A stretch of 64,000 nucleotides of DNA from Roseateles hydrophilus (lineage in GTDB: Bacteria > Pseudomonadota > Gammaproteobacteria > Burkholderiales > Burkholderiaceae_C): assembly GCF_026712245.1 (NCBI RefSeq), contig NZ_JAPPUY010000001.1, positions 682,001-746,000 on the forward strand, read 5' to 3'. The notes under the pieces were generated by a model, which searched no databases, had not been told where the DNA came from, and saw only the letters and a list, made by a program, of their open reading frames with translations. Position numbers and translations under genes: made by a program. Positions 13,459 to 21,840 of the stretch are shown here, one piece after another (within the stretch, counting starts at the first letter, position 1; the number at the start of each line of letters is the position of its first letter).

Positions 13459-13712
13459 CGATCACCGTGCGTCTGAAGTTCTTCGCGTCCTTGCGCGAGA
13501 AGCTGGGCGAAGGCGAGGCGCTGGCCCTGCCCGCCGGCAGCACGGTGGCTGATGCACGCGCGGCGTTGCGTGCGCGCGGCGGCGCGCATGCCGAAGCGCT
13601 GGCTGCGGGCCGCGCGGTGCGCTCGGCGCTGAACCAGAAGATGTGCGCGGAGTCCGCGGTGCTGGCGGATGGCGACGAGCTCGCGTTTTTTCCGCCCGTC
13701 ACCGGCGGTTGA
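13455..13712 (+). CDS. moaD: Molybdopterin synthase sulfur-carrier subunit MoaD
   Basis: Ubiquitin-like sulfur carrier of 85 aa ending in the required Gly-Gly (PPVTGG), which is adenylated and thiocarboxylated before donating sulfur to precursor Z. It overlaps moeA by four bases. Its catalytic partner MoaE is normally the adjacent gene but here lies 8.2 kb away at 21955, with the polyamine/SPFH gene block between them. Confidence 0.96.
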   Translation: MTITVRLKFFASLREKLGEGEALALPAGSTVADARAALRARGGAHAEALAAGRAVRSALNQKMCAESAVLADGDELAFFPPVTGG

Positions 13713-13716
13713 TCGC

Positions 13717-14082
13717 TTGAACGGCCTGCACCTGACGGCCGACCTGCGCGGCGTCGACGCGGCGCTGCCGCTGATGCGCGACCCCGTGGCGCTGGCGTCG
13801 CTGTGCCGCGACGCCGTCACGGGCTCGGGCCTCAGTGGCGTCGCCGAACTGTTCCACCGCTTTGGTGCGGCTGACGAGCAGGGCGGCATCACCGGCGTCG
13901 TGCTGCTGGCCGAGTCTCACCTGGCCATCCACACCTGGCCCGAACTGGGCGGCGTGACGCTGGACGTCTACGTCTGCAACTACGGCGCCGACAACAGCGC
14001 CAAGGCCGAGGCGCTGATGGAGACGTTGCTGGCTGCGCTGGCACCCGAAGTGGCCAACGTGCAGCGCCTGCGAAGAGGCTGA
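13717..14082 (+). CDS. S-adenosylmethionine decarboxylase proenzyme (class 1b, pyruvoyl)
   Basis: Makes decarboxylated AdoMet, the aminopropyl donor for polyamine synthases. At 121 aa it has the size of the short bacterial SpeH-type proenzyme. Self-cleavage should occur at Glu66-Ser67 in LLAESHLAIHTWPE, turning Ser67 into the pyruvoyl group; His72 and Cys86 (YVCNYG) match the processing and proton-donor residues of the Thermotoga enzyme. The chosen start is TTG at 13717, four bases after the moaD stop, because upstream codons run through moaD in another frame. Its stop overlaps the next ATG (TGATG). It presumably feeds the membrane aminopropyltransferase encoded convergently at 16097-17662. 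Confidence 0.93.
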   Translation: MNGLHLTADLRGVDAALPLMRDPVALASLCRDAVTGSGLSGVAELFHRFGAADEQGGITGVVLLAESHLAIHTWPELGGVTLDVYVCNYGADNSAKAEALMETLLAALAPEVANVQRLRRG

Positions 14083-14546
14083 TGGCCGGCGAGCGAATGC
14101 ACCGCGAGTCCGCGCAGGCCTCGTCGGCGGAAGAGATGGACGAACTGGTGTCTCGGGCGAGGGCGCAACGACGTCGCATTGACGCGGTCGACGGCCAGCT
14201 GCACATCGCCAATCACATCCCTCGTGGCGAGCGCATCGCCAACACGTTGATGTCGCTTGGGCTGCTCGCCTGCTCGCTGCATGCTGCACTCCACGACGAT
14301 CTTCACATCAGTGGCCGGCGCGGGCCGGGCATCCATCTGCATGGCCCGCCGCTGTGGATGCTGTGTGCGGCGATGGCATGCGCTGCCGCCAACATGCTGT
14401 CGGTTGTCGTGGATCACTACGACACGCGCGCCAACGAGTTCCGCTACCGTCGTTTTGCGTTGGTCACGCAGGTGGCTGGCTGGTTACTGTTCTTTGCGGC
14501 GTTCGCGGCGGAGGCGTTCGTGTTCCAACTGGCAACACGGCACTGA
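14082..14546 (+). CDS. Unknown inner-membrane protein, coupled to the AdoMet decarboxylase gene
   Basis: A 154-aa protein I do not recognise. The first 50 residues are hydrophilic and charged (SSAEEMDELVSRARAQRRR). Three hydrophobic segments follow at about 52-70, 89-110 and 125-150, with a His-rich loop (HAALHDDLHISGRRG) between the first two. The ATG shares a base with the stop of the decarboxylase gene, so the two are almost certainly co-translated. It ends nine bases before the stop of the convergent FAD oxidase gene. The context suggests a membrane partner of the polyamine gene block; no catalytic motif is visible. Confidence 0.75.
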   Translation: MAGERMHRESAQASSAEEMDELVSRARAQRRRIDAVDGQLHIANHIPRGERIANTLMSLGLLACSLHAALHDDLHISGRRGPGIHLHGPPLWMLCAAMACAAANMLSVVVDHYDTRANEFRYRRFALVTQVAGWLLFFAAFAAEAFVFQLATRH

Positions 14547-14555
14547 CGCCAGCGT

Positions 14556-16115
14556 TCAGAGCCTGACCCGCGCCGCCGCGCCGACGCCGGCCGTGTAGGC
14601 CTCCTCGAACACCGAGTACCCCGCCAGGTCGCTGTGCGCGAACACGACCCGGCCGCTCGCCTCGTTCAGTGCGGCCAGTGCCGCCGAGCCGCGCAGGCCC
14701 GGCGTCGGGATGCTCATTGCGTGGCCGAAGCGGCACAGGTCGATGCGCTCGACCTGGCCGGGCAGATCGGGGTGCGTCTGCGCCAGCTCGTCGATGACGA
14801 CCTGGGCCCAGTGCTGCCATGGCTGGCTCAGCAGCTCGCCGCGTTGCGAGGCCGGCAGCGCGAGGTAGGCGGTCAGCAGCGGCGGCTGTGGCGTCGGGTC
14901 CAGCGACTGGTGGCGGGCGTTCACATAGCCCAGCGCTGTTGTGCCGTAGCGCACGCTGTCCCACGCAGATGGCAGGCCGGGGCGGATCAGCAAGGGCTCG
15001 CGCAGCAGCACATTGGCCGTCAGCCAGGGCGCGTAGCTGGGCTTCAGTGCACGCAGCGCGGCGGGTGGCGCGGCTAGCAGCCGGGCGCTGACGAACAGCG
15101 GCGTCGCCATGACGACGGCACGCGCGGCCCAGCGCTCGGGGGCGTGGGCGGCCTCGTTCCAGGCCAGTGCCTCGATGCCGTCGCGCGTCTCGGTCACGCG
15201 CAGCACGCTGCGGCCCAGGTGCAGGCGGTCGCGCAGCGGCTCGGCGATGCGCTGGCTGAGCCAGCCGTTGCCCTCGGGCCAGGTCAGCACGGGCTCGCGC
15301 TCGGCGCTGTCATCGCCTGGCGCATGGAAGCCGTGGCGGCTGGCGAAGTAGTGCAGGCCGGCCCAGGCCGACACGCCGTCGGCGCTGGCGCCGAAGTCGT
15401 CGCGGCAGCAATAGTCCAGGTACCAGCGCAGCCGTGTGTCGTGCAGGCCCTGGTGGTCCAGCCAGGCGGCGAAGGTCTGTGCGTCGAGCGCGGCGTGGGC
15501 GGGTGTCCAGCGCGCGCGGCGTGTCGGCATCGCAAAGCCGGCGTTGCGCTGCGCCTGCGCGACGAGCGCGGCGAAGCGCCGGTACTGCTCGCGCGTGGCC
15601 GCGTCGTCGGCCGGTGGCAACAGGCCCTCGTGCCAGGCGCCGTCGATGAACAGGCGCTCCTGCGGGCTGTGGCACAGGTGGCGCTCGTCCCAGTCGGTGC
15701 GGCCCAGGCGCTGGCGTGACAGGCCCAGCTCGGCCAGCAGCTGCGACACCTCGTGCGCGTCCGCGCCGGGCAGCGGCAGGTAGTGCGCGCCCAGCGGGCA
15801 GGGCGCGCCGCCCAGTGCGTGCGCGCGGCTGTTGCCGCCGGCCTGATCCTCCAGGTCCAGCAGCGCGATGTCGTCCACGCCGCGTTGGCTCAGCGCCCGC
15901 GCGCAGGCCAGGCCGGCGATGCCGGCGCCGACGATGAGCACGCCCGTCTGGCGCAGCGGGCCGTCGGCGCGCGGCAACTCGCCGCGCAGCCGATGCCCGC
16001 GCTCGGGATGCGTGCCGACCCAGCCGCCTCGCAGCGTGGGCGCGTCGGGCGTGCAGCCGGCGGCCGCCACGCCCGCGAGCAGCAGCGTGCGCCGCCTCAA
16101 TGCACCGCTCCCCAT
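14556..16115 (-). CDS. Exported FAD-dependent amine oxidase-like protein (twin-Arg lipoprotein signal)
   Basis: A 519-aa flavoprotein of the amine oxidase/phytoene desaturase fold. The N-terminus carries RRRTLLLAGVAAAGC, a twin-arginine-like signal ending in a lipobox (Cys about 21), which suggests folded export and anchoring on the periplasmic side. The FAD-binding GxGxxG is VLIVGAGIAGLACARAL at about 58-74, followed by an acidic strand end (ALLDLEDQAGGNSR). The C-terminal FAD motif (ALAALNEASGRVVFAHSDLAGY) is intact. It is the last gene of the seven-gene leftward operon and overlaps the aminopropyltransferase gene by 19 bases. Oxidation of a polyamine or aminopropylated product is an inference from that context; phytoene-type substrates are not excluded. 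Confidence 0.82.
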   Translation of the reverse strand: MGSGALRRRTLLLAGVAAAGCTPDAPTLRGGWVGTHPERGHRLRGELPRADGPLRQTGVLIVGAGIAGLACARALSQRGVDDIALLDLEDQAGGNSRAHALGGAPCPLGAHYLPLPGADAHEVSQLLAELGLSRQRLGRTDWDERHLCHSPQERLFIDGAWHEGLLPPADDAATREQYRRFAALVAQAQRNAGFAMPTRRARWTPAHAALDAQTFAAWLDHQGLHDTRLRWYLDYCCRDDFGASADGVSAWAGLHYFASRHGFHAPGDDSAEREPVLTWPEGNGWLSQRIAEPLRDRLHLGRSVLRVTETRDGIEALAWNEAAHAPERWAARAVVMATPLFVSARLLAAPPAALRALKPSYAPWLTANVLLREPLLIRPGLPSAWDSVRYGTTALGYVNARHQSLDPTPQPPLLTAYLALPASQRGELLSQPWQHWAQVVIDELAQTHPDLPGQVERIDLCRFGHAMSIPTPGLRGSAALAALNEASGRVVFAHSDLAGYSVFEEAYTAGVGAAARVRL

Positions 16116-17662
16116 TCCTCCTCAAAGGTCTGCACCAGCACCTGGTTGCTCAGGCGGTTGACCTCGCTGGGCACGCGGGCCATGTCGGGCGGGAAGTCCA
16201 GCAGCGTGGGCAGGGTCTGTGCGCTCATGAAGCGCAGCCCTGGTGGGAACTGCGTCGGCAGCCGGAAGGGGCGGCGCGACGCGAGGATGAAGCCCCATTC
16301 GCCAAAGGACGGCACATGAGCGTGGTAGGGCGTGGCCGTCAGCCCGACAGACTCCAGCGTGGCCACGACCGTCCAGAAGCTGCGCCGCGCGATGAGCGGC
16401 GACGTGGATTGCACGACCGCATAGCCGCCGGCGCTCAGGCGCTGGTCCACGAACTCGTAGAAGCTGGCCGTGTAGAGCTTGCCCAGTGCGAAGTTGGACG
16501 GGTCGGGGAAGTCGATGATGATGATGTCGAAGGTCTCGGTCTGCTGCTCCAGCCAGCCGAAGGCGTCGGTGTTGATGACGCGCAGCTTCGGTGACGACAG
16601 CGCCTGGCCGTTCAGCGCGGCGAGTTTGGCGTTGTCGCGGAACAGCGTCGTCATCAGCGGGTCCAGTTCCACCAGCGTGACCTGCTCGACGCTGGCGTAC
16701 TTCAGCACCTCGCGCACGGCCATGCCGTCGCCGCCGCCCAGCACCAGCACACGCTTGGGCGCACCGTGCGCGGCCATGGCCGGCTGCACCAGGGCCTCGT
16801 GGTACCGGTACTCGTCGCGCGAGTGGAATTGCAGATTGCCGTTCAGGAACAGCCGGGTGCCGCCAGCGCCCTCGGTGACGACGATGCGCTGGTAGGCGCT
16901 GCTTTGCTTGAAGACGATGTCCTCGCCGTAGAAGCGGTCCTCGGCCCAGGTCGTCAGCCGCTCGGCACCCAGCAGCGCGGCCAGCAGCAGGCCGGCGGAC
17001 AGCGCACAGGCCGCGCCCATCGCGCCACGCGCCCGCACATCGGCCCGGAACAGCCACAGCGCCCACACCGCGACGGCCACGTTCAGCAGCCCGAACACCA
17101 CGCCCGTGCGCACCAGCCCCAGGTGCGGCACCAGCACCAGCGGGAAGGCCAGCGCCACGAGCAGCGCGCCGAGGTAGTCGAAGGTCAGCACCTGCGACAC
17201 CAGGTCCTTGAGCCCGTAGCGCGCGCTGAAGTGGCGCTTGAGGATGCGCATGACCAGCGGAATCTCCAGCCCCACCAGCGTGCCCACCAGCAGCACCAGC
17301 GCATACAGCAGCACGCGGAACGGCGTGGCGGCGCCCGGCGGCAGCAGGCTGTGCACGGCGAACAGCGCCGCTGGCATCAGCCCGCCGATGACGCCCACCA
17401 GCAGCTCCACCTGCAGGAACACGCCCACCAGCTGCCGCTCCACGAAGCGGGACAGCCACGAGCCCAGCCCCATCGCGAACAGGTAGACGCCGATGATGGT
17501 GGAGAACTGCAGCACCGAGTCGCCGAGCAGGTAGCTCGCCAGCGCGCCGGCAGCCAGCTCGTAGACCAGGCCGCAGGCCGCGATGAAGAACACGCTGACG
17601 AGCAGCAGCACCTCGGCGGCCGAGACGCGCGCGGCGGCGGTGGGAGGGGCGGCGTCGCTCAA
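16097..17662 (-). CDS. Membrane-embedded spermidine synthase-like aminopropyltransferase
   Basis: A 521-aa fusion of a polytopic membrane domain and a spermidine synthase domain. Residues 1-245 hold about seven hydrophobic segments, starting with AEVLLLVSVFFIAACGLVYE. The C-terminal half has the AdoMet-binding VLVLGGGDGMAVREVL near residue 305, the acidic LVELDP and the catalytic-type DFPDPSNFALGKLYT. Cytosolic SpeE is about 290 aa and lacks the membrane part. Expected reaction: transfer of an aminopropyl group from decarboxylated AdoMet to an amine; the acceptor is unknown. The start is TTG, sharing bases with the upstream stop (TTGA), so it is translationally coupled to the beta-propeller gene. 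The convergent decarboxylase gene can supply the donor. Confidence 0.9.
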   Translation of the reverse strand: MSDAAPPTAAARVSAAEVLLLVSVFFIAACGLVYELAAGALASYLLGDSVLQFSTIIGVYLFAMGLGSWLSRFVERQLVGVFLQVELLVGVIGGLMPAALFAVHSLLPPGAATPFRVLLYALVLLVGTLVGLEIPLVMRILKRHFSARYGLKDLVSQVLTFDYLGALLVALAFPLVLVPHLGLVRTGVVFGLLNVAVAVWALWLFRADVRARGAMGAACALSAGLLLAALLGAERLTTWAEDRFYGEDIVFKQSSAYQRIVVTEGAGGTRLFLNGNLQFHSRDEYRYHEALVQPAMAAHGAPKRVLVLGGGDGMAVREVLKYASVEQVTLVELDPLMTTLFRDNAKLAALNGQALSSPKLRVINTDAFGWLEQQTETFDIIIIDFPDPSNFALGKLYTASFYEFVDQRLSAGGYAVVQSTSPLIARRSFWTVVATLESVGLTATPYHAHVPSFGEWGFILASRRPFRLPTQFPPGLRFMSAQTLPTLLDFPPDMARVPSEVNRLSNQVLVQTFEEEWGAVH

Positions 17663-18618
17663 GGCTTGGGCGGCGTCAGCGTCACGGACACGGCCAGCCG
17701 CGTGCCGTCCGGGCTGGCCGCGATGTTGCGCACGGCGCCGCCCAGCGCGGGCAGGTCGGCGAAGGGCTGGAAGCCGCTGCCGGCCTTACCGTCCCAGCGC
17801 AGGAACAGGTGGCCGCGCGCCATCAGCAGCGAGCCGTCCGGCAGCCGGGCAAAGTACTGCGGCCGGTTGGCGGGCTTGTCACCCTCGGGCAGCGGCGGCG
17901 TCTCCACCAGCACCTGAGGTGTGGCCTCGTCGGGGCCTTGTGCGCTGATGCGCCAGCGCTGCGGGTCGGTCTGGTCCACGAACAGCGCGCGTCGGCCATC
18001 GGCCGTGCGGGCCAGCGCGCGGCCGGGCTTGTCGGTCAGCAGCGTCTGCCGGCCGCTGCGGCGGTCGATCAGCACGGCCCGGTGCTGGTTGCGCTGCGGC
18101 ACGTCGTCGACGATGAAGGCGGCGATGAGTTCTGGCGTGATCCACGCGTGATAGCCGATGCGCTTGACCGGCACGACGGGCGCCACGGGCTGGCCATCCC
18201 AGCCGAAGTGCCACAGCGAGGGCTGGTGCATCTCGATGCCGTAGGCCGGGTCGGCCGTGACCACGCGGATGGCCGAGAAGCCGCTGCCGTCGGGCAGCGG
18301 GGTGGGCGAGTAGAGGTTCTCGGTCGTCCGGGTGACGGCGGTTGTGCTGCCGCTGGCGAGCTCGTGCCGGTAGACGTTGTAGCTGCCGGTGTGGCCAGCG
18401 CTGTAGACCACGGTCGCACCGTCGGGCGTGAAGGCGGGCTGGATGTGGCTGCCCTTGGTCAGCGTGATGTTGCGCAGCTCGGTGAGCGTGCCGGCCTTCA
18501 GGTCCAGCCGGGCGACGAAGACGGCGACATCGGGTGGCGCGTCCGCGGCCGCGGCGGGCAGCGCGACGGTCAGGAACAGCGTGAAGGCGTGGGCGAGGCG
18601 GCGGAGGGCGTGGTGCAT
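17659..18618 (-). CDS. Exported TolB/PD40-like beta-propeller protein
   Basis: A 319-aa protein with a signal peptide (FTLFLTVALPAAAADA) followed by repeated WD40-like PD40 blades: IQPAFTPDGATVVYSAG, then YSPTPLPDGSGF, ALARTADGRRALFVD and IAASPDGTRLAVSV. These F-x-PDG-x motifs typify TolB-type propellers, which usually bind other proteins or glycans in the periplasm. No enzyme motif is seen. ATG at 18618 is chosen because it begins the signal peptide. It sits between the YciI-like gene and the aminopropyltransferase gene, overlapping the latter by four bases. A role as periplasmic sensor or scaffold of this operon is inferred. Confidence 0.8.
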   Translation of the reverse strand: MHHALRRLAHAFTLFLTVALPAAAADAPPDVAVFVARLDLKAGTLTELRNITLTKGSHIQPAFTPDGATVVYSAGHTGSYNVYRHELASGSTTAVTRTTENLYSPTPLPDGSGFSAIRVVTADPAYGIEMHQPSLWHFGWDGQPVAPVVPVKRIGYHAWITPELIAAFIVDDVPQRNQHRAVLIDRRSGRQTLLTDKPGRALARTADGRRALFVDQTDPQRWRISAQGPDEATPQVLVETPPLPEGDKPANRPQYFARLPDGSLLMARGHLFLRWDGKAGSGFQPFADLPALGGAVRNIAASPDGTRLAVSVTLTPPKP

Positions 18619-18655
18619 GGCATGCCTGTGCAGAGCGACGGGCCGCGAGTGTCGG

Positions 18656-19000
18656 CTAGAAAGACACCCGCTCCGGCAGCGCCTTGCTCCAGTGGAAGAT
18701 GTCCCAGCCGGCGCGCAGGCCACCGGTGGTGAAGGGGTCGGTGGCGATCAGCGCCTCGACCGCGGCCTTGTCCGGTGCGCGAACGACCCACAGCGCGCCC
18801 ACTGGCGTCGCGTCGGGCGATGTGCGCAGCGAGCCTGCCACCCGCAGCATGCTGCGCTGGGCGGCGACCCATTCGAGGTGCGCTTGCAGCAGTTGCTGGC
18901 GCAGAGCGCCGGCGCCGGGCTTGTCGTGAAAACGGACGGCGAACAGCGTCCAGTCTTCATGGGCATTCGCCGTCAGCACGGCGAAGTCATGCTCACCCAT
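18656..19000 (-). CDS. YciI-like domain protein
   Basis: A 114-aa soluble protein of the YciI/dimeric alpha-beta barrel family. Recognisable elements are the N-terminal strand with WTLFAVRFHDKPG, the R-x3-L-x2-HL pattern (LRQQLLQAHLEWV), the hairpin VAGSLRTSPDATPVGALWVV and a C-terminal DPFTTGGL. Family members include small enzymes and proteins of unknown role; a His/Asp pair (His45, Asp97 region) is kept. It overlaps the DUF350 gene by eight bases, so it belongs to the same operon. Its part in the system is unknown. Confidence 0.8.
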   Translation of the reverse strand: MGEHDFAVLTANAHEDWTLFAVRFHDKPGAGALRQQLLQAHLEWVAAQRSMLRVAGSLRTSPDATPVGALWVVRAPDKAAVEALIATDPFTTGGLRAGWDIFHWSKALPERVSF

Positions 19001-19214
19001 GAATCGCCGCAGCGACGATGTTGCCGATGGAGATGCACATCGCCCCGACGACGATGGCCAGCGCCAGGTTCTTGTGTTCGACGATCTCTTCCCACAGCTT
19101 GTAGGGCGTGATCTTGTCGACCACGATGAAGCAGATCCAGAAGATGACGACGCCGATGAGGGCGTACATCGTCGTGCCGAGGACGACTTCGGGCTTGAGC
19201 CAGTCGAGGGTCAT
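18993..19214 (-). CDS. DUF350 small membrane protein (YjfL family)
   Basis: A 73-aa inner-membrane protein with two hydrophobic helices (about 13-33 and 50-70) separated by a charged loop (KITPYKLWEEIVEHKN). This is a single DUF350 unit; E. coli YjfL carries two. DUF350 proteins are repeatedly found beside PspA-, SPFH- and polyamine/peptide-ligase-type genes, but their function is not established. A good AGGAG lies eight bases before the ATG. It follows the DUF4178 gene by 21 bases in the operon. Confidence 0.88.
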   Translation of the reverse strand: MTLDWLKPEVVLGTTMYALIGVVIFWICFIVVDKITPYKLWEEIVEHKNLALAIVVGAMCISIGNIVAAAIHG

Positions 19215-19235
19215 GGTGAGCGCTCCTTGTGCGTC

Positions 19236-20816
19236 TTATTTGTGGCTGCCGCCACCGCTGCTGTAGCCGCCGTAGCTGCCGCCACTGGGGATGTAGACGC
19301 CGCTGCCGCGCGTGTTGGCACGGCATTGGCGGTATTCGTTGCTGTTTTCGCCGAAGCTGGTCTTGTACTGCTGGCAGTCGTCGCTGGCGCAGGCGCGCAG
19401 CAGCGCGCCCAGCAGGAGCAGCACGAACAGCCCCAAGAACAGATAGACCAGCAGCTTGGCGCCACCGGCGTTGAAGGCTGCGGCGTCGCGCGTGAAGCTT
19501 GCGGCCGGCGCGGTGGCCAGGCCGAAGGCCTTTTGCACGGTTGCGGCGGGCAGCGTGCGGCCGGCGCTCCACGTGACCTCCGGGCCCTGCTGTTCCCGGC
19601 TCAGCAGGAACTGGCCGTCGGCGCTGGCGAAGTCGGTCACCTGCACGCGGTCGTCCAGCCGCACGGGCCAGTAGAACTCGCCCAGCACATGGGTCGTCTT
19701 GGCCTGGTAGGTCCAGCGCTGGTCGTAGTGCCGGCCCTTCCAGGTGGCGCCCTTGCGCGACGGGATGGGCGCGCCGGTCAGCGTCTGCACCAGGCTCCAG
19801 CCCTCCTGCGTGTCCACGAGGAAGGCAAAGCCCGCCAGCCGGTTGAACAGCAGGTACTCGCGCCAGAAGCTCTGCTCGTCCTCCGCATCCTCGGGGATGT
19901 CGCAGCGCTCCTGGTAGCCCACGACCTGCCAGGCTTGCGGCTTGCCGCCGGCGTCGGGCAGTGAACCGCTGCGGCCCAGCGGGATCAGCGGCGGCTGGCC
20001 TGGCGACTGCGCGGTGAAGCCCAGCGCCTTGGCGTCGCCCTCGGGCAGGTCGACAACGGCGTTGCACTGCGCGCAGACCATGCTCTTGGTCTGCGCGAGC
20101 TGGGGCTCCAGCGGCGCGCCGCAGCTGGGGCAGCCGATGGCGCGGCCCTTGAACCGGGCCTCGGCGATGGACTCGCCCTCGGCCGTCGTGCGCAGGCCCT
20201 GCAGCGCCAGCTCGGCCAGCTGCACCGGGCGGCCGACGGACCAGACGAAGGAGAGATCCTGCCGGTACTCCAGCGCGCCCACCTCGTCGCGCTCATTGCG
20301 CAGCTCGACGACGCCGCCGTCCTGCGGCACGCGCGGCAGCTCGCCCTCGGCGGCGCGCACAGTCGCCTCGATGACGGCGGCCACCTGCCAGCGCTGGCCC
20401 GCCAGCGTCAGTGGTTGGCCGACCTGGGGGGATGGCGGCGGCGCCTCGTCCAGCGGCGCCTCGAAGCTGAGGACGAACTGGCCGTTGTCCTCGCTGAGCC
20501 AGGCCACGCGGGGCGTGCCGTCGGCGTCGAACAGCAGATGCCATTCGTTCCAGTGGCCCAGCTCCGAGCCGCGCTGCACGCGGCCGACCACGGCGAAACC
20601 GGCGCCCATCCAGCGCCCGGTGGCACCCAGTTGCAGCGGCGAGTAGTCGTCAAAAATCTCGGCGCTCTGGCCGATGCGGCTCAGCGTGTCACCGTCGCGC
20701 AGCAGCGTGCTGCGGCAGAAGCCGCACACGGCGCTGGCCGACGCTGCGCTCGCGAACTCGACGGGCGCGCCGCAGTTGGGGCAGCTCGCGCGCCAGCGGC
20801 GCTGGGACTCAGCCAA
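19236..20816 (-). CDS. Zinc-ribbon, DUF4178 membrane protein with Gly/Ser-rich tail
   Basis: A 526-aa protein with two zinc ribbons: C12/C15/C31/C34 at the N-terminus and C229/C232/C248/C251 in the middle. Each is followed by a DUF4178-like beta-rich module (for example HWNEWHLLFDADG near 90 and FWREYLLFNRLAGFAFL near 320). One transmembrane helix follows at about 454-474. The remaining 50 residues contain C476, C481 and C498 and end in a Gly/Ser/Tyr-rich stretch (503-526). The start is TTG overlapping the SPFH stop by eight bases; no ATG lies nearby. DUF4178 has no known activity. The layout suggests a cytosolic sensor or platform tied to the membrane, working with the SPFH and DUF350 proteins. 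Confidence 0.85.
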   Translation of the reverse strand: MAESQRRWRASCPNCGAPVEFASAASASAVCGFCRSTLLRDGDTLSRIGQSAEIFDDYSPLQLGATGRWMGAGFAVVGRVQRGSELGHWNEWHLLFDADGTPRVAWLSEDNGQFVLSFEAPLDEAPPPSPQVGQPLTLAGQRWQVAAVIEATVRAAEGELPRVPQDGGVVELRNERDEVGALEYRQDLSFVWSVGRPVQLAELALQGLRTTAEGESIAEARFKGRAIGCPSCGAPLEPQLAQTKSMVCAQCNAVVDLPEGDAKALGFTAQSPGQPPLIPLGRSGSLPDAGGKPQAWQVVGYQERCDIPEDAEDEQSFWREYLLFNRLAGFAFLVDTQEGWSLVQTLTGAPIPSRKGATWKGRHYDQRWTYQAKTTHVLGEFYWPVRLDDRVQVTDFASADGQFLLSREQQGPEVTWSAGRTLPAATVQKAFGLATAPAASFTRDAAAFNAGGAKLLVYLFLGLFVLLLLGALLRACASDDCQQYKTSFGENSNEYRQCRANTRGSGVYIPSGGSYGGYSSGGGSHK

Positions 20817-21840
20817 GCTTCTTCAGGAGGTCCGCTTTTTTGGCGGCGAATTCCTCGTCGGTCAGGATGCCCTTGGCCTTGAGGTCGCCGAGCTTTTCCA
20901 GCAGCGAAACGATGTCGTCGGGCCGCGTGGGGGCGGGGGCGGGCGCAGCAGCGCCCACACCGGCCAGCCCCTGGCCCAGTGTTTGCGCCAGCGTCTGGCC
21001 CAGCGCCACGCCGGCGCCCAGGCCGATGGCTTCGCCTGCGATGCCGCTGCCGCCGCCGGCTGCGCCCTTGGCCATCTCGGGCAGGGCTTGCGCGGCCTGG
21101 TACTGCATGAACTGGCCCATGTTCTGGCCGATGATGCCCATGCCGATGCGCTGGTCGAGGATCTTCTGCAGCTCCTCCGGCAGCGACACGTTCTGCATCG
21201 TCACCGAGATCAGCTCCAGCCCCAGCGCTGCAAATGCGGGCGCGGTGGCGGCCTGGAGGGCGGCGGCGAACGCGGTCTGATTGGCGGCCAGGTCCAGGAA
21301 GGGCGTGCCGCTGCCGGCGACGGCGTCGCTGATGTGCTGCAGCATGAGGCCGCGCAGCTGGCCTTCCAGCTCCTGCACCGTGTAGCGCTCGCGGGTGCCA
21401 GAGATCTGGCTGTGGAAGGTCTTGGCGTCCTGGACGCGGTAGGCGTAATTGCCGAAGGCGCGCAGGCGCACGGCACCGAAGTCTTTGTCGCGGATGGCGA
21501 TGGGCTGGCTGGTGCCCCAGCGCTGGTCGATCTGCTGGCGGGTGCTGAAGAAGTAGACGTCGCTCTTGAAGGGCGACTCGAACAGCTTGTCCCAGTTCTT
21601 CAGATAGGTCAGCACCGGCAGCGTCTGCGTCGTCAGCTTGTGGGTGCCCGGGCCAAAGACGTCGGCCACCTGGCCCTCGTTGACGAAGACGGCGACCTGC
21701 GACTCGCGCACGACGAGCTGGCCGCCGTTCTGGATTTCCATGCCGGCCATCGGAAAGCGCCACGACAGCGTGCCATCGCCGTCTTCCGTCCACTGGATGA
21801 CGTCTATGAACTGTTTCTTGATGAAATCCATCAGGGCCAT
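20809..21840 (-). CDS. SPFH-SHOCT protein (YdjI/virion-core-like family)
   Basis: A 343-aa protein with no signal peptide. An SPFH/band-7-like domain covers about 25-225 (GGQLVVRESQVAVFVNEG at its start). A Gly/Ala/Pro-rich linker (about 250-305) leads to a C-terminal SHOCT motif (LEKLGDLKAKGILTDEEF). The same layout occurs in B. subtilis YdjI, found in an operon with a PspA homologue. SPFH proteins form membrane-associated oligomers; SHOCT motifs are oligomerisation or targeting tags. It is the first gene of the leftward operon, with AGGAA six bases before the ATG, so the operon promoter should lie within 21841-21950, shared back to back with moaE. Confidence 0.88.
   Translation of the reverse strand: MALMDFIKKQFIDVIQWTEDGDGTLSWRFPMAGMEIQNGGQLVVRESQVAVFVNEGQVADVFGPGTHKLTTQTLPVLTYLKNWDKLFESPFKSDVYFFSTRQQIDQRWGTSQPIAIRDKDFGAVRLRAFGNYAYRVQDAKTFHSQISGTRERYTVQELEGQLRGLMLQHISDAVAGSGTPFLDLAANQTAFAAALQAATAPAFAALGLELISVTMQNVSLPEELQKILDQRIGMGIIGQNMGQFMQYQAAQALPEMAKGAAGGGSGIAGEAIGLGAGVALGQTLAQTLGQGLAGVGAAAPAPAPTRPDDIVSLLEKLGDLKAKGILTDEEFAAKKADLLKKLG

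Follow-up and report, generated by a model that had tools for sequence, protein, structure and literature searches.

A conserved aminopropyltransferase cluster of Roseateles hydrophilus and a lysine-tipped membrane tail as its candidate acceptor

The window analysed here, a stretch of 64,000 nucleotides from contig NZ_JAPPUY010000001.1 of Roseateles hydrophilus (genome G000 of the analysis; 4.77 Mb in 13 contigs), carries a block of nine genes that includes a fusion of a seven-transmembrane (7TM) domain with an aminopropyltransferase (Table 1). Translations of the open reading frames (ORFs), together with Pfam and NCBIfam profile searches, placed all nine genes where the first-pass annotation had them, in two converging units. 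The overlap it had described at almost every junction holds for most same-strand junctions, but the DUF4178 and DUF350 genes are separated by 21 bases. At its left end the block adjoins moeA and moaD, the first frame of SpeD overlapping moaD; the SpeD start codon is TTG, and a longer frame opens at 13669. One feature was overlooked in the earlier annotation, namely the lysine with which the tail of the DUF4178 protein ends (codon 19239-19241). The favoured reading, with a probability of roughly 0.45, is that the cluster modifies protein tips at the membrane, placing an aminopropyl group on the terminal lysine of a membrane-anchored tail.

Table 1. Genes and internal features of the cluster (positions in the window; aa, amino acids; AdoMet, S-adenosylmethionine; dcAdoMet, decarboxylated AdoMet; FAD, flavin adenine dinucleotide; Tat, twin-arginine translocation; TM, transmembrane helix)
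Feature	Position	Strand	Evidence or remark
SpeD, class 1b AdoMet decarboxylase	13717-14082	+	PF02675 3.9e-24; TIGR03330 80.7 bits (cut-off 75.65)
154-aa membrane protein	14082-14546	+	no family above cut-off
FAD amine oxidase, Tat-type signal and lipobox-like Cys	14556-16115	-	PF01593 5.4e-23
Tat-type signal of amine oxidase, residues 1-21, ...RRRTLLLAGVAAAGC	16053-16115	-	translation reading; homologues aligned by eye
7TM-aminopropyltransferase (7TM-SpdSyn) fusion, mSpeE	16097-17662	-	NCBIfam PRK03612 672 bits, cut-off 472
Seven-helix membrane domain of fusion, residues 1-245	16928-17662	-	helices from AlphaFold2 model
GGGDG dcAdoMet motif of fusion, residues 309-313	16724-16738	-	kept in 41/41 loci compared
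PD40 / beta-propeller protein, accessory	17659-18723	-	PF07676 1.1e-8
YCII-like protein, accessory	18656-19000	-	PF03795 4.3e-8
DUF350 (YjfL-type), half-size, 73 aa	18993-19214	-	PF03994 5.7e-15, model positions 7-66 of 133
DUF4178 protein: zinc-ribbon-like cysteines, one C-terminal TM, exported tail (predicted)	19236-20816	-	PF13785 2.9e-29, 2 stretches
Gly/Ser tail past TM of DUF4178 protein, end ...GGYSSGGGSHK	19239-19388	-	terminal Lys codon 19239-19241; candidate acceptor
SPFH / band-7 protein with SHOCT	20809-21840	-	PF13421 2.9e-75, PF09851 2.4e-9

SPFH, DUF4178, DUF350, the membrane aminopropyltransferase, the Tat-type amine oxidase and SpeD form a real conserved neighbourhood core. 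A profile search of 60 relatives found the fusion above the cut-off in 33, namely in 19 of 20 members of the genus (the window genome included, the twentieth being a fragment), in 10 of 16 others from the family and in 4 of 24 others from the order. The closest named relative in the fetched set was Pelomonas sp. Root1444, with 88% identity in the fusion. Across an evenly drawn sample of 150 genomes from the phylum, the fusion was present in 14. DUF4178 was found in nine, every one of them fusion-bearing, DUF350 in 37, which covered all 14 fusion genomes, and SpeD in 35, which covered 12 of the 14. Co-occurrence with the fusion gave Fisher p values of 2e-11 for DUF4178, 3e-10 for DUF350 and 3e-7 for SpeD (3e-10, 1e-9 and 1e-6 without the window's own genome), and the genes lay within 10 kb of the fusion in 9/9, 12/14 and 9/12 genomes, respectively. 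The control genome Corynebacterium glutamicum, of the Actinomycetota, gave matches for the fusion, DUF4178 and DUF350 but none for class 1 SpeD. The strong co-occurrence runs counter to the refuting condition named in the first-pass annotation, that these genes rarely occur together elsewhere.

From 520 relatives the best 80 loci on genome contigs were named, L078 and L062 being one record. The 51 of these with at least 4 kb on both sides carry DUF4178 in 47 cases, DUF350 in 47, the amine oxidase in 45, SPFH in 43 and SpeD in 27, and record titles among the 80 include Acidobacteria, Gemmatimonas, Leptospiraceae, Cytophagales, Corallococcus and Nitrospinota. In 13 fetched neighbourhoods of the genus the core is complete, with SpeD in 12 (one contig was too short).

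The lysine tip of the window protein recurs throughout these clusters. Survey loci with a DUF4178 protein number 99, and in 66 of them the protein continues past one TM as a Gly/Ser tail whose last residue is lysine; 65 of these fused tails end in HK and one in GK, and lysine is otherwise absent from the last 40 residues in 56 of the 65 HK tails. Each of the other 33 loci has an ORF of 45-65 aa downstream of the DUF4178 gene, coding for one TM and a polar tail, and all 33 end in lysine (22 HK, 11 GK; codons AAA in 19 and AAG in 14; all three stop codons used). These stand-alone peptides were chosen by eye from the 330 nt downstream of the DUF4178 gene; as a control, the equivalent 330-nt stretches behind five other cluster genes contained 487 ORFs, none of which ended in HK, GGK or RGK. 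Coding constraint on the peptides is evident from a pooled pN/pS of 0.40 over 9 pairs. Ten representatives matched no Pfam or NCBIfam family above cut-off, and the one from Novosphingobium carries the NCBI label 'hypothetical protein'.

Such partners are also found away from DUF4178. Ten PspA-type and related clusters had no local DUF4178 match, and in eight of them a GK-ending exported protein or peptide lies beside the fusion or DUF350; these eight (L039, L041, L042, L044-L048) were found on inspection, L042 being the weakest. For the remaining two DUF350 lies on another contig, which was fetched as a test, and in both the adjoining lipoprotein ends in lysine (GGGK, RGGK). A further test used six plasmid-borne fusions, half of the 12 records with a coverage of 80% or more. 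All six had a lysine-ended partner (Novosphingobium SHK, Gemmatirosa HGK, Burkholderia SHK, Tritonibacter RVK, Ensifer SGK and Alteromonas SGK), two of them after a second, wider look. Overall, 109 of 121 aminopropyltransferase loci have a lysine-tipped partner. The PspA-like genes in clusters of the L039/L045 type would also suit an envelope-stress module resembling the phage shock protein system, with polyamine chemistry as the signal and no fixed protein acceptor, and the parallels with PspA/CesT-Tir operons in Ravi et al. 2024 (PMC11237479) point the same way. We consider this account improbable for the window, however, where none of the nine proteins is a PspA and the one PspA match of the genome lies on another contig (C6:484062).

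A contrast was provided by 18 DUF350 loci without the fusion. A recognisable exported partner was present in 12, of which 11 adjoin a YgiC/YjfC-type ligase and one, in L170, a YgiB homologue only; no recognisable partner was seen in L168, L171, L176 and L178. Together with YjfM and YgiB of Escherichia coli these make 14 sister proteins, 13 of them by a ligase, which end in Gly (9) or Ser (5) and in no case in Lys (the frame of the L175 partner is uncertain). Since the partners are lysine-ended beside the aminopropyltransferase and Gly/Ser-ended beside the ligase, the tip seems to follow the enzyme. In L179 and L180 (genomes G140 and G199), a double DUF350 stands with a Ser-rich exported protein of 328 or 337 aa ending in GFIG, and no fusion or ATP-grasp ligase lies close by; this is possibly a third variant.

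A C-terminal lysine on exported and lipoprotein tails also recalls Braun's lipoprotein, which is tethered to peptidoglycan through its C-terminal lysine. The tails could be tethered in the same way, with the aminopropyltransferase modifying something else or tuning the link, but the lysine tip tracks that enzyme and not SPFH or DUF350, which accompany Gly/Ser tips as well, and we think a tether of this kind improbable.

The enzymes of the cluster keep their active-site motifs. SpeD is the only one found by profile search of its own genome, and the Glu-Ser-His processing site is kept in all 62 cluster SpeDs, that of the window included. In four loci (L041, L044, L047 and L048) the His after this site is replaced by Ser (ISTWP for IHTWP); we take this His to be a catalytic residue, and the SpeDs concerned may have altered activity. 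In the fusion, GGGDG, a Tyr-His pair and both catalytic Asp residues of DxPDP are kept in all 41 loci compared, residue 312 being the acidic Asp of the GxG(D/E)G position. A loss of the acidic motif in genomes without a SpeD match was considered and rejected, as GGGDG is kept in L042 and L043 (genomes G096 and G116). The AlphaFold2 model of the fusion (mean predicted local distance difference test score, pLDDT, 90) places its catalytic domain closest to the Medicago thermospermine synthase 6bq2 (257 residues aligned at 1.5 A, Z 35) and to 1uir, the triamine/agmatine enzyme of Thermus; spermidine synthases take up the match list of the complete model. Against the Synechococcus spermidine synthase 6qmm, the Glu of the diamine pocket is changed to Thr420 (Thr in 40 of 41 loci, Ala in L048) and the Tyr to Phe453 (41/41); the same Glu is also absent from 6bq2 and 1uir.

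These pocket changes bear on the simplest explanation, that SpeD and the fusion are the organism's ordinary spermidine pathway. The genome indeed has no other SpeD and no other Spermine_synth protein carrying the acidic motif, two further matches lacking the acidic dcAdoMet residue, and it has a gene of the ornithine/lysine/arginine-decarboxylase family. The pocket Glu and Tyr, however, are changed throughout the loci, and the objection that this might be the sole spermidine pathway is countered by PMC12803844, which cites Li et al. 2019 and describes bacterial fusions of this type as having, by experiment, no part in making spermidine or spermine. Plain spermidine synthesis is an unlikely role for the cluster, and as the organism's ordinary route it is the least probable of the readings considered here.

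Among PDB sequences, the amine oxidase comes closest to polyamine, putrescine and monoamine oxidases; its homologues carry an RR motif in 75 of 86 and a lipobox-like motif in 54 of 86 by loose patterns for which no background was computed. The DUF4178 protein model (pLDDT 82) gave no Foldseek match at E <= 0.001, and the best VIA Z was 4.5.

The sides of the membrane were predicted from 120 distinct fusions. Lys plus Arg have a mean of 8.1 for loops 2-3, 4-5 and 6-7 against a mean of 0.26 for loops 1-2, 3-4 and 5-6, and the sign of the difference is shared by 120/120. Given seven helices, this pattern predicts an extracytoplasmic catalytic domain, a prediction that depends on helix 7 alone. 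Helices 6 and 7 are equally hydrophobic (mean 1.94 each; helix 2 is lowest at 1.39), and helix 7 is flanked by +2.2/-0.9 charges ahead and +2.0/-4.2 behind. Both the catalytic domain and the lysine tail are predicted to be extracytoplasmic and so to share a side with the exported amine oxidase. An alignment was obtained between the membrane domain and the N-terminal, major facilitator superfamily (MFS)-like half of a split MFS/SpdSyn pair on G000:C6 (i-Evalue 1e-9, one target), which is suggestive only, because the composition bias is 16.5 bits against a score of 24.4. At L004 (G000:C6:67074-70439) an MFS/SpdSyn-like protein is divided into two overlapping genes; its SpdSyn-like half is without the acidic dcAdoMet residue, like the fungal enzyme NHMT, and therefore may be a methyltransferase.

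Within the helices of the fusion, the acidic residues E86, E133 and D162 are invariant. In a membrane-embedded enzyme with SPFH and DUF350 neighbours, these residues would suit aminopropylation of a small molecule or a lipid head group (e.g., phosphatidylethanolamine), with the lysine tail sensing or docking the charged product. This is the most credible of the alternatives, though still unlikely, as it leaves unexplained the difference between a Lys tip beside this enzyme and a Gly/Ser tip beside the ligase.

The preferred reading, aminopropylation of the terminal lysine, draws on the computed gene conservation, the intact active-site motifs, the C-terminal lysine and its dependence on this enzyme. 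SpeD would produce dcAdoMet in the cytosol, and the 7TM-aminopropyltransferase would transfer the aminopropyl group from it onto the putative acceptor, the C-terminal lysine, at the epsilon-amine. The acceptor tail would here be the end of the DUF4178 protein and elsewhere a separate peptide or lipoprotein. As lysine resembles putrescine in offering an aminobutyl arm, the product would bear a spermidine-like side chain at its tip, and the narrow pocket of a spermidine synthase would presumably fit only a chain-end lysine with ease. The exported oxidase may later act on the modified tip, the half-MFS-like 7TM part may carry dcAdoMet or substrate, and the SPFH, DUF350 and DUF4178 domains may serve as a scaffold. 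A fuller version is doubtful, slightly more so than the lipid alternative: the 7TM part would export dcAdoMet to its own extracytoplasmic domain to give an N-epsilon-(3-aminopropyl)lysine tip, the oxidase would turn this into an aldehyde that cross-links the envelope, and the ligase sister clusters, E. coli included, would arrive convergently at a spermidine tip, on tails that end in Gly. The first-pass annotation had likewise proposed aminopropylation at the membrane, and the conserved SpeD processing site, dcAdoMet motif and co-occurrence uphold that part, but no sign was found to support its suggestion of defence.

Several observations weigh against lysine aminopropylation. Genomes G096 and G116 have the fusion with no class 1 SpeD match (a search for class 2 AdoMet decarboxylase gave no match anywhere, control genomes included). 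No lysine-tipped partner was found in 12 of the 121 loci (L068, L080, L118, L119, L122-L127, L130 and L137), several of which are short stretches, although L080, L119 and L127 have about 10 kb on both sides. The orientation bias of the lysine tails is modest (48/65 for fused tails; 22 to 3 with 8 ties for stand-alone peptides), the C-terminal lysine could serve another enzyme, and an extracytoplasmic catalytic domain needs dcAdoMet on that side of the membrane, for which we know of no bacterial precedent.

The YCII, PD40 and 154-aa genes of the window are local extras. YCII is present in 11 and PD40 in six of the 13 genus neighbourhoods; among the 80 named loci YCII was seen once, in a genus member, and PD40 in none, tblastn matches to the PD40 protein being confined to six loci. 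The 154-aa protein was rejected as a conserved part of the cluster, having matched in none of 149 other family genomes, and is an orphan, probably an accessory of this strain only. It is three-helix-like and encoded between SpeD and the amine oxidase, which in the fetched genus neighbourhoods stand end to end at this place. The DUF350 proteins of other clusters are full or double length, compared with 73 aa in the window.

The fusion cluster spans many phyla and has hitherto been without an acceptor, for which the enzyme-linked lysine tip offers one concrete candidate for mass spectrometry. If true, terminal-lysine aminopropylation would be a new type of modification for proteins of the cell envelope, and should the catalytic domain indeed prove extracytoplasmic, the export of dcAdoMet would be a further surprise. 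The scheme would unite DUF350, DUF4178 and the exported amine oxidase, and it suggests possible targets of the E. coli YjfC and YgiC ligases.

Among known systems, Li et al. 2019 reportedly described a cluster of AdoMet decarboxylase, an MFS-spermidine synthase fusion and DUF350, and a speE strain is said not to have been complemented by the fusion. The window shares with it a SpdSyn domain fused to N-terminal multiple TMs, and a class 1b SpeD and DUF350 in the neighbourhood; as far as its abstract goes, no acceptor, topology or lysine-tipped partner is known from that cluster. In Ravi et al. 2024 (PMC11237479), which cites Li et al. 2019, a 7TM-SpdSyn operon with CesT/Tir-PspA, DUF350, DUF4178 and a lipoprotein is described with no proven mechanism, and an envelope-stress role is proposed. 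The window shares the fusion, DUF350 and DUF4178 but has SPFH in place of the CesT/Tir-PspA dyad, plus SpeD and the amine oxidase. Its DUF4178 protein also has a TM and a lysine-tipped tail, whereas DUF4178 is there predicted to be intracellular. A band-7/SHOCT variant with AdoMet decarboxylase and polyamine oxidase, from the same source, is matched by the window in band-7 with SHOCT, AdoMet decarboxylase and amine oxidase, but the ATP-grasp peptide ligase given for its parent group is not among the nine window proteins. Close relatives are thus already described, and the block, which the first-pass annotation had taken for an undescribed system, is a variant of a known neighbourhood.

With yjfIJKLMC/ygiBC of E. 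coli, the cluster has in common DUF350 (yjf only), an exported Gly/Ser-rich tail and a polyamine enzyme; there the aminopropyltransferase is replaced by an ATP-grasp ligase and the tails end in GG instead of K. YjfC and YgiC are annotated as peptide--spermidine ligases, and yjfM and ygiB of strain K-12 (L159, L160) encode ligase-adjoining lipoproteins whose tails are candidate substrates of these ligases. Compared with SpeE, the fusion has the acidic dcAdoMet motif and the two catalytic Asp residues but not the 6qmm-type pocket Glu and Tyr (Thr420, Phe453). Fungal NHMT also joins a 7TM to a SpdSyn-like domain and, according to PMC10349129, methylates the N-terminal His of exported proteins after signal-peptide cleavage, its 7TM domain being reported as fungal only. 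It is without the acidic dcAdoMet residue and acts on the N-terminus, whereas the window fusion keeps Asp312; by analogy, it may serve as a precedent for a 7TM/SpdSyn-like domain working outside the cytosol. Our literature search, whose coverage left out most subscription journals, found no acceptor or lysine-tipped partner for these fusions, nor any mention of aminopropylation of a terminal lysine by them. To a neighbourhood otherwise already described, the present analysis adds the lysine tip and a prediction of the side on which the catalytic domain lies.

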